A DNA stretch of 19,909 nucleotides from NCBI GenBank assembly GCA_030622125.1, contig JAUXGM010000024.1, positions 1-19,909 of the forward strand. Direction: 5' to 3'. Shown in pieces: positions 5,762-19,909 of this stretch. The position numbers and the translations under genes were made by a program. The DNA comes from a bacterium. GTDB taxonomy: Bacteria > AUK180. Each line of letters starts with the position of its first letter. The stretch's first letter is position 1. The notes beneath the pieces are model-generated. The model searched no databases, was not told the origin of the DNA, and worked only from the letters and a program-made list of their open reading frames with translations.

Positions 5762-5837
5762 GGATTCTTCCTTAAATAACGATAAACCACCCGAGAACAA
5801 TATAGACAAAGGAAATAGGTTCAAAGGTGACGAAGTC

Positions 5838-17516: not shown

Positions 17517-18608
17517 TTATAGTATTAATAAGTCCTTTTTGATACCACTTGTTAATAAAATGGGACCTGTCTCAGTTAAATAAATATCATCTTCAAGCCG
17601 TACACCGAATTCATTTTTCAAATAGATACCAGGTTCATCGGTAAAAGTCATTCCAGCTTCTAAATGTCCCCGCTTAGTTTTGCTTGACAAAAATGGGGGT
17701 TCATGAATTTCCAGACCGATACCGTGCCCCAAACTATGAATAAATTTATCGCCATAACCGGCTTTTTCTATTTCATTCCTTGCAATAGAATCCACCTTTT
17801 TAAAGGTCATGCCTATTTTAATTTTATCAAATACTTTTTGATTTGCCCTTAAAACCGCCAAATAAACCTCCTTCATTTTTTTTGTAGGTTCTCCTAAAAA
17901 GAATGTACGGGTAACATCAGAGGTATAGTGATTGTAATCAACACCGAAATCCATTAATATCACTTCTTTTTCTCTACAAAACACATCATGTTGTGGAACC
18001 CCATGAGGGAGGGAAGTTCTCGCTCCGAATAAAACAATTGATTCAAATCCGGGACCTAAACCGCCAAACTTTTTCATTTGATATTCCAATTCTGCTGCTA
18101 AATCCGATTCCGAGATACCCGGTTTTATTATTTCAATGGTTTTGTAAAATGCTTTTTCTGTAATTCCAACAGCTTTAGTAATATTTGCTATTTCATGTTC
18201 GTCCTTAATTAATCTTAAAGGATTAAGAATGTTATCTTTAGATTTTAATTTAACGCCCTTTAAAGATTTTTTAATACTTCTGTATAAATTCAAAGATATT
18301 CTATTCCCATCAATAAAAACCTCTTGAACATTATCTGCCTTTAGAATATCTGTTGTGTCTTTAAAAACAGAAATATAGGACTGAACTTCCACCATCTTTA
18401 TATGTTTTATCTCTTTTTTTGCCGCTTCAATATATCGACTATCTATAAAAAACAGAGCGCTCTTGGGCGTAATAATTAAAATGCCATCCCGTTCTTCGCT
18501 GGAATGAAATCCTGATAAATATGTTCTTGATATATTATCATAAAAAATAAAAGCTTTTTCCGGATATAATTTTCTTAGTTGTGTAATCCTATCGTTATAA
18601 GATACCAT
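17517..18608 (-). CDS. M24 family Xaa-Pro aminopeptidase/dipeptidase
   Basis: The 363-residue protein has a creatinase-type N-terminal domain (1-135) and a pita-bread metallopeptidase domain. The five metal ligands are visible: D220 (LMDFGVDY), D231 (TSDVTRT), H295 (HSLGHGIGLE), E325 (TDEPGIY) and E339 (VRLEDD). It likely removes residues next to proline from cytosolic peptides. Sequence alone does not separate PepP from PepQ-type specificity, so I give no symbol. The ATG overlaps the end of the Roadblock gene by 14 bp. Placement before efp mirrors the known M24 peptidase-efp arrangement (yqhT-efp in Bacillus). Confidence 0.92.
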   Translation of the reverse strand: MVSYNDRITQLRKLYPEKAFIFYDNISRTYLSGFHSSEERDGILIITPKSALFFIDSRYIEAAKKEIKHIKMVEVQSYISVFKDTTDILKADNVQEVFIDGNRISLNLYRSIKKSLKGVKLKSKDNILNPLRLIKDEHEIANITKAVGITEKAFYKTIEIIKPGISESDLAAELEYQMKKFGGLGPGFESIVLFGARTSLPHGVPQHDVFCREKEVILMDFGVDYNHYTSDVTRTFFLGEPTKKMKEVYLAVLRANQKVFDKIKIGMTFKKVDSIARNEIEKAGYGDKFIHSLGHGIGLEIHEPPFLSSKTKRGHLEAGMTFTDEPGIYLKNEFGVRLEDDIYLTETGPILLTSGIKKDLLIL

Positions 18609-19909
18609 TTTCCTTTGCCTTTTTGGATAATATTTTTGCTATTGGTAAAATACTTGTTGCTTGAACATACGGTTCGCCAAACAATACTAAATAGCCATAA
18701 TCGTCTTTTATATAGAATATCTTTTTATTCTCATATCTAAAAAAGCCCTCTATTAAATTATTACCACCGAACTCGTGTGATAGGTCCTCGGTTTTCTTTA
18801 ATATTTCTGCGAAATCTGCTGCAAACCTGTTGGTATCAATAGAGTTTTCTCCAACATTAGATGAAATCAGTAAGCCGTCGTCACTTGTAATAAATACCAT
18901 ATCAATTCCCTCAAAATTAACAAATGTATTTAATAAGCTTTCTATTGTAGTCATATCTTTTTCAACCTTATTTGCAAGATATATAGGAAGTTCTATTGGT
19001 AACGGAGTTTGCATTTGGATTCCCTCTGTGGTTACTTCTTCTTTCTCTTCTTTCTCCTCTTTTTCCTCTTCTGCTTTTTCTTCCTCTTCACCAACCTCCA
19101 AACTTTCACCCCGCACCAAATTGGTGCTGGGCAAGCCTCTATCCTCTTCTTCTATGGTTACTTCTTCTTTCTCTGCCGCTTCTTCTTCCTCTTCTTCTTC
19201 TGCGGTTACTTCTTCTTCTTCCTCTTCACCAACCTCTAACCTTTCACCCCGCACCAAATTGGTGCTGGGCATGCCTCTATCCTCTTCTTCTATGGTTCCT
19301 TCTAATTTTTCTCCCGGTTTCTCATCAGGAGTATAGATCACTGTTTCTTCAGCTTCTCCTTCTCCAGCCTCGTCGAAAAGGCCTTCAACAGATTCCTTTT
19401 CTGCTGCCTCTGCTTCACCGAAGAGATCCTCAACGGATTCTTCCTCTTCCTTTGCAGTTTCCGGTTCTTCTTCTTTCTCTTTTTCTTTCTCTTCACCAGC
19501 CTCTAACCTCGAGCCTCTATCCTCTAATTTCTCTTCTGCTTTTTCTTCAGTTTCCGGTTCTTCCTCTGCTTCCTCTTCTTCACCGAAGAGGTCTTCAACG
19601 AATTCTTCCCCTTCCTTTGCAGTTTCCGGTTCTTCCTCTTTTTCTTCTACAGTTTCTTCTTCTGCTGCTTCACCGAAGAGGTCTTCAACGGATTCTTCCT
19701 CTTTTGCTTCTTCTGTTTCACCGAAAAGGTCCTCAACGGATTCTTTCTCTTCCTTTGCAGTTTCCGGTTCTTCCTCTTCTTCTTCTTTTTCTTTCTCTTC
19801 TTCCTCTTCAGTTTCCGGCTCTTCCTCTTCTTCCTCTTTTTCTTTCTCTTCTTCTTCCTCTTCAGTTTCCGGTTCTTCCTCTTCTTCCTCTTCTTCTTCT
19901 TTTTCTTTC
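18595..19909 (-). CDS. Roadblock/LC7-domain protein with long acidic repetitive N-terminal region (5' partial)
   Basis: The frame is open from the stop at 18595-18597 to the window end (437 codons), so the start lies outside; a GTG at 19341 is internal. The C-terminal ~130 residues resemble a Roadblock/LC7 fold (ANKVEKDMTTIESLL, GIDMVFITSDDGLLISSNV, NRFAADFAEILKKTEDL, IFYIKDDYGYLVLFGE). In bacteria such domains regulate small Ras-like GTPases, as in MglB. The remaining ~300 residues are Glu-rich low complexity with recurring ETEPEEE and KEKEE blocks, five copies of a V-E-D/G-L-F motif and two copies of PSTNLVRGE flanked by EDRG and LEVGEE. No partner GTPase is seen in the window. The gene is upstream of the M24 peptidase and overlaps it. 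Confidence 0.7.
   Translation of the reverse strand, partial: KEKEEEEEEEEEPETEEEEEEKEKEEEEEEPETEEEEEKEKEEEEEEPETAKEEKESVEDLFGETEEAKEEESVEDLFGEAAEEETVEEKEEEPETAKEGEEFVEDLFGEEEEAEEEPETEEKAEEKLEDRGSRLEAGEEKEKEKEEEPETAKEEEESVEDLFGEAEAAEKESVEGLFDEAGEGEAEETVIYTPDEKPGEKLEGTIEEEDRGMPSTNLVRGERLEVGEEEEEEVTAEEEEEEEAAEKEEVTIEEEDRGLPSTNLVRGESLEVGEEEEKAEEEKEEKEEKEEVTTEGIQMQTPLPIELPIYLANKVEKDMTTIESLLNTFVNFEGIDMVFITSDDGLLISSNVGENSIDTNRFAADFAEILKKTEDLSHEFGGNNLIEGFFRYENKKIFYIKDDYGYLVLFGEPYVQATSILPIAKILSKKAKENGIL
19083..19160 (-). repeat. In-frame coding repeat with palindromic core, copy 1
   Basis: This 78-base unit matches 19221-19298 at 74 positions (138 bases apart, 46 codons). It contains the palindrome GCACCAAATTGGTGC at 19113-19127, flanked by CCCC and TGGG. 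On the minus strand it encodes EDRG-LPSTNLVRGES-LEVGEE inside the acidic region of the Roadblock protein. Confidence 0.85.
19221..19298 (-). repeat. In-frame coding repeat with palindromic core, copy 2
   Basis: This is the second copy, with the identical palindrome at 19251-19265. It encodes EDRG-MPSTNLVRGER-LEVGEE. The protein differs from copy 1 at two residues only. Confidence 0.85.
19372..19743 (-). repeat. Five copies of an ESVEDLFGE-type motif
   Basis: Eight-codon units lie at 19372-19395 (ESVEGLFD), 19417-19440 (ESVEDLFG), 19582-19605 (EFVEDLFG), 19672-19695 (ESVEDLFG) and 19720-19743 (ESVEDLFG). They are embedded in Glu/Lys-rich sequence. The regular hydrophobic V..LF in a disordered acidic chain suggests a short binding motif. 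Confidence 0.7.
19491..19525 (-). repeat. Related coding repeat lacking the palindromic core, copy 3
   Basis: The left 19 bases (19491-19509) match copy 2 at 19224-19242 with one mismatch. The right 13 bases (19513-19525) match 19273-19285 exactly. Between them copy 3 has 3 bases where copy 2 has 30, so it encodes EDRG-S-RLEAGEE without the PSTNLVRGE stretch. Confidence 0.75.

Follow-up and report, generated by a model that had tools for sequence, protein, structure and literature searches.

The window analysed in this work, 19,909 nucleotides long, is an entire contig (C47) of a 2.08-Mb draft genome, 96% complete and divided into 192 contigs, which was searched as a whole. At the right end of the window, on the reverse strand, lies the C-terminal part of a gene encoding an acidic low-complexity linker and a Roadblock/LC7 domain (about 18688-18945), and this gene contains three copies of a repeated unit, two of them bearing a short hairpin. 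The N-terminal, TPR half of the gene is probably found on contig C1 (C1:21972-23080, at the contig end); both C1 and the window (at 19909) break within the acidic repeats of the gene. The relevant features, all on the minus strand, are:

18595-19909, minus strand: host gene, C-terminal part, with acidic low-complexity linker and Roadblock/LC7 domain (Pfam PF03259, 30.2 bits; orthologues in the relatives G001-G004)
19041-19316, minus strand: 138-nt tandem duplication bearing copies 1 and 2 (halves 19041-19178 and 19179-19316, 84% identical)
19082-19146, minus strand: hairpin-bearing unit, copy 1, GAGGATAGAGGC-hairpin-TGAAAG..GGTGAAGAGGA, in the Roadblock ORF
19105-19134, minus strand: 30-nt core of copy 1 (palindrome 19113-19127)
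19220-19284, minus strand: hairpin-bearing unit, copy 2, used as query in the genome search (covariance model 70.9 bits)
19243-19272, minus strand: 30-nt core of copy 2 (palindrome 19251-19265; single-stranded DNA fold -9.6 kcal/mol, z -3.4)
19490-19524, minus strand: copy 3, hairpin-less 35-nt five-heptad form (EDRGSRLEAGEE), among the 46 genome matches to the 35-mer pattern

The palindrome GCACCAA-A-TTGGTGC was located in copies 1 and 2, and a shorter copy 3 beside them, exactly where the earlier note had placed them. Counting both strands, the window holds 4 palindrome matches against 0.30 expected, and at least 4 were obtained in none of 200 shuffles. Copies 1 and 2 are 95% identical (E 6.7e-24), their predicted translations being EDRGLPSTNLVRGESLEVGEE and EDRGMPSTNLVRGERLEVGEE, respectively; copy 3, shorter by 27 nt, has matching flanks (GAGGATAGAGGC ... 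GTTAGAGGCTGGTGAAGA). The suggestion that copies 1 and 2 arose by local duplication is borne out by the 138-nt tandem duplication. The differences between its two halves are spread evenly over the codon positions (7, 7 and 8) and affect 13 codons non-synonymously and 5 synonymously, so that the encoded peptide seems to be tolerated, rather than preserved: as judged from these codons, the duplicated copies carry no sign of purifying selection and their peptide is probably not functional.

The core at 19243-19272 reads TGCCCAGCACCAATTTGGTGCGGGGTGAAA on the gene strand. Its stem, CCC-A-GCACC / GGTGC-G-GGG, includes one conserved A/G mismatch and extends beyond the palindrome, which lies innermost. 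The stem is invariant, and for this reason no covariation was found in it, while the loop is variable (AATTT, AAGAT, AATAT, GTGAAACT, ATTACT and others); the sequences adjoining the stem are CATG, TTCA or TTTA at one end and, for the most part, TGAA at the other. The basic unit of the repeat is 35 nt long and made of five heptads, GAGGTTA GAGGTTS GAGGTTA GAGGTTA GTGAARA; in a second form, a hairpin core of about 30 nt (CCCAGCACC-loop-GGTGCGGGGTGAAA) is placed between heptads 2 and 3, giving a unit of about 62 nt. This genome has 46 copies of the hairpin-less 35-mer, across which the position-specific differences among heptads 1-5 are kept, indicating that whole units were copied and that the heptads did not slip independently. 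Copy 3, previously taken for an empty site preceding insertion, belongs to this hairpin-less form, and the flanks common to the three copies are thus part of the repeat unit. Around the same core, an alternative heptad dialect (AAAGGTTCA / AAGTTCAAAAG) is found at some places in this genome and in the relative AUK180, where it takes the form AAAGGTTTA-core-TGTTCAAAAG, some copies here being alike; the core therefore occurs in more than one context. The site just upstream of the common intergenic sequence AACAATATTAA is a slot with three states: in the stretches of DNA examined, 27 instances are without the unit, 27 contain the 35-mer and 8 the hairpin form. The slot junctions overlap (AGTGAAAAAC vs AGTAAAAAC), with no target duplication.

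The earlier note had proposed to look for dispersed copies of the 30-base core in this genome and its relatives, and these do exist, mostly in intergenic regions, but also in other genes. The 15-mer palindrome, with up to 2 mismatches allowed, matched the whole genome 17 times forward and 17 times in reverse; its reversed version, used as control, matched neither strand. The 65-nt sequence of copy 2 found 29 genome places, and a covariance model gave 31 matches here (one being the same site on the opposite strand), 15 in G002 and 0 to 1 in five other relatives. The core and its 62-nt surroundings make up a dispersed family, represented some 30 times in this genome and 15 times in one relative; about 22 copies lie outside any convincing gene. 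These copy counts are approximate, because the draft assembly breaks at repeats and the first 117 nt or so of contig C44 look chimeric. When 84,980 species genomes were scanned for the exact pattern, the core was found only in the MAG AUK180 and at two isolated actinobacterial sites, which look like chance occurrences. G002 appears to be AUK180 itself, judging from its Y1_Tnp matches and from a Roadblock orthologue with identical coordinates and scores; a published listing assigns AUK180 to the candidate phylum Uvuciota, with deep-sea and marine hydrothermal sediments as the source (PMC11382960). None of 386 genomes, this one included, contains a pure 23-nt heptad string, which is too strict a pattern to inform on distribution. 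Spread by phages or plasmids was also considered and rejected, the exact core being absent from viral contigs and no similar DNA being present in the plasmid collection; similarly, no known RNA family could be assigned, the sole Rfam match in the window being a tRNA.

Six copies of the hairpin form fall within the coding DNA of four genes, and they share both strand and frame (+0, ...DRGMPSTNLVRGERLEV...). The hosts are the Roadblock gene (two copies, in the tandem duplication), the gene for ribosomal protein bL17 (two copies, in the C-terminal tail), a SPOR-domain gene and a gene on contig C58 with no Pfam match. The SPOR-domain gene is split over contigs C36 and C44, which represent a single gene, since the G001 orthologue holds both halves. 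The common frame, one of the six, reads for example DRG-M-PSTNLVRGE, and the predicted repeat-derived peptides include STNLVR, LEVSEEGK and TIDNGQLTIDNEEK. This agrees with the earlier view of a palindromic repeat lying in frame within acidic low-complexity stretches of protein genes. Coding 35-mers, including those in bS16, C130 and C178, follow the same rule, 8 out of 8 being in frame +0 (P about 0.0006 with frames drawn evenly from the open frames of each copy, a value which assumes independent copies, although duplicates are not independent). Position 5 of the 35-mer is A, giving Asp for Val, in 5 of the 8 coding copies vs 3 of the 38 others (Fisher P 0.002). Kinship among subfamilies, as opposed to independent insertion, might account for part of the frame rule. 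On C110, the bL17 gene is part of an alpha/spc operon with intact order; named from the translations, the genes run secY-adk-map-S13-S11-S4-rpoA-bL17. The expected location of bL17 after rpoA indicates that it is not a stray pseudogene.

Four relatives of the same family, belonging to other genera (G001-G004), provided Roadblock orthologues for comparison. PSTNLVRG was not found in any of them, despite their long acidic linkers, nor were the repeats found in the charged tails of bL17 orthologues; the linkers are therefore older than the repeats inside them. The linker of the AUK180 orthologue (L049, on contig C319 of G002) contains the peptide ITTEHAEHSE, which looks like the in-frame reading of a different intergenic repeat (ACCACAGAG type) in the same protein.

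Other dispersed repeats are predicted to be translated in protein tails: CAATTGA heptads, with reading TIDNGQLTIDN, AGTGAAT heptads, with reading VNSEQLIVNSE, the TCATTCTGAGG..GAAGAATC repeat, with reading HSEASAEE, and the ACCACAGAGGACACAGAG repeat, with reading TTEDTE. By Pfam the hosts include bL17, bS16, S1 and uL30, and an ORF upstream of secY is probably a uL15 tail. The bL17 tail (L120:1354-2229, C110) is about 170 residues long and by its predicted translation, largely made of at least four families of dispersed repeats. VNSEQLIVNSE, TIDNGQLTIDN and HSEASAEE occur in the repeat-containing tails of bS16 (L282:839-1597, C49), S1 (L272:393-2609, C50) and uL30 (L279:901-1227, C147). The TTAGATAACGATAGA.. 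repeat, present at 30 distinct places in the stretches of DNA examined, has a single occurrence in a long frame, where it and CAATTGA heptads jointly form an insert some 50 residues long within the catalytic domain of a radical-SAM/Elp3-like protein (L274:1101-2213, C76); Elp3 structures have about 3 residues at the corresponding position. The window itself holds, at 5772-5816, an intergenic copy of the dispersed repeat TTAAATAACGATAAACCACCCGAGAACA..., for which 30 distinct places were seen in the stretches of DNA examined. It is conceivable, though we consider it doubtful, that core proteins (bL17, bS16, S1, uL30, Roadblock, SPOR) systematically capture, in a single acidic frame, members of several unrelated intergenic families, which would be the raw material for the growth of their disordered tails, possibly through a dedicated insertion route favouring GAA/GAG codon tracts.

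As to the origin of the copies in genes, we regard as highly probable a non-autonomous dispersed repeat, whose two forms are copied as whole units and of which a few copies land in acidic linkers and tails. Both forms would have been copied to dozens of places, mostly intergenic, and a few copies would have reached the GAA/GAG-rich codons of acidic linkers and tails, the disorder of which is suggested by their composition. Within genes, only the frame giving a hydrophilic, acidic peptide has been found, so that the host protein would be lengthened, not broken; local tandem duplication may then have multiplied some of the copies, and their retention would reflect tolerance, rather than use. For the copying step we tentatively propose, with somewhat less than even confidence, copy-insertion through GA-rich microhomology at the unit ends during replication or repair, possibly aided by the hairpin; mobilisation in trans by some enzyme would be the alternative. 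The unit starts with GAGG and ends with GAAGA, and microhomology of this kind would account for its being drawn to GAA/GAG codons as well as for the frame being constant. No target-site duplication, defined terminal inverted repeat or linked transposase came to light. None of the relatives is close enough to supply nucleotide-exact empty sites.

A different account would dispense with any mobile element, the sequence having spread by heptad slippage, gene conversion and simple-repeat recombination. The core is indeed flanked by heptad repeats, and the slot junctions overlap instead of being target duplications; against this, slippage does not account for whole-unit copying, with its position-specific heptad differences across 46 copies, nor for the same hairpin being set in two heptad dialects in two genera, and we judge this account rather unlikely. 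It appears quite improbable that the unit is a REP-type element, for which a Y1 (IS200/IS605-like) RAYT transposase would provide mobility in trans. Y1_Tnp genes do exist, 4 in this genome and 13 in AUK180, and the unit does contain a short hairpin whose stem has a conserved mismatch, yet neither the hairpin nor the heptads are found near any of these 17 loci, no GTAG/CGTC tag adjoins the stem, and Y1 genes are present in every relative searched, those free of the element having 3-7 of them.

In principle, contig joins at repeats might have created false copies within genes, as many copies lie at contig ends, the SPOR gene is split at the element into its C36 and C44 halves, and there is a resemblance between C44:1-117 and sequence of the window. 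This explanation is nevertheless very improbable, because bL17 resides in its intact operon, bS16 and S1 lie inside contigs of 40 and 33 kb, and the flanks of the window agree with the Roadblock orthologues at both sides. The start of C44 itself (L118:1-117) matches the Roadblock gene of the window and looks like an assembly chimera formed at the element, with C36 as the probable true neighbour of C44 on the left. Least credible of all, and rejected on the evidence of orthologues and intergenic copies, is the notion that PSTNLVRGE is a conserved functional motif, the likeness at the DNA level resulting from gene duplication. The peptide does occur in four proteins of the genome, in the same frame, but it is missing from orthologues, about 22 copies of the unit lie outside convincing genes, and the evenly distributed, mostly non-synonymous differences between the 138-nt duplicates do not suggest preservation. 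The earlier note had opposed to its proposal a core found nowhere else in the genome and a PSTNLVRGE stretch conserved in all orthologues; neither holds.

A dispersed, non-autonomous repeat of this kind invites comparison with several known systems, although a search of the literature on heptad repeats and in-frame intergenic repeats found no description of this case. Like the degenerate heptanucleotide repeats found between genes of cyanobacteria (short tandemly repeated repetitive, STRR), the present family consists of degenerate tandem heptads and is dispersed (a five-heptad unit in 46 copies); unlike them, it is dispersed as a fixed five-heptad unit, which may carry a hairpin and in some copies is read in coding frames. 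ERIC and Correia-type MITEs are small non-autonomous repeats that can be fused in frame to genes (PMC2229807). Terminal inverted repeats, TA termini and target duplications were not seen here, in comparisons with relatives too distant to offer nucleotide-exact empty sites. REPs are palindromes of 20-40 nt, mostly intergenic and sometimes within ORFs (PMC3733652). The present repeat shares with GTAG/CGTC REPs a short palindrome and a mostly intergenic, sometimes intragenic location, and differs from them in having no GTAG/CGTC tag at the stem and in that 0 of 17 Y1_Tnp loci are flanked by the element.

The closest parallel is with RPEs, dispersed palindromic, non-autonomous elements of Rickettsia, found also in Wolbachia, which lie in intergenic regions and, in frame, within conserved genes without breaking them (PMC2229807, PMC3767692, PMC10969869). 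The likeness to Rickettsia palindromic elements that had been proposed stands as far as behaviour in genes is concerned, the unit being in frame in otherwise conserved genes and absent from Roadblock and bL17 orthologues. Membership, on the other hand, is not supported: RPEs are 100-150 nt long, with long stem-loops and terminal inverted repeats, and are palindromic over most of their length, whereas the units described here measure 35 or 62 nt, with only about 22 nt in a hairpin set inside heptad repeats. Their host, moreover, belongs to a candidate phylum, and copies in genes fall mainly in acidic low-complexity tails and linkers. By the features tested, the family is thus neither REP nor RPE, being set apart from the latter by size and palindrome extent in spite of its RPE-like behaviour. 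The presence of several repeat families in ribosomal protein tails illustrates a way by which intergenic DNA may become protein, and offers a natural data set on the growth of acidic tails and on the insertions tolerated by essential proteins. Protein-coding palindromes have been described as peculiar to Rickettsia and its kin; the family reported here represents a separate case, in an unrelated candidate phylum.
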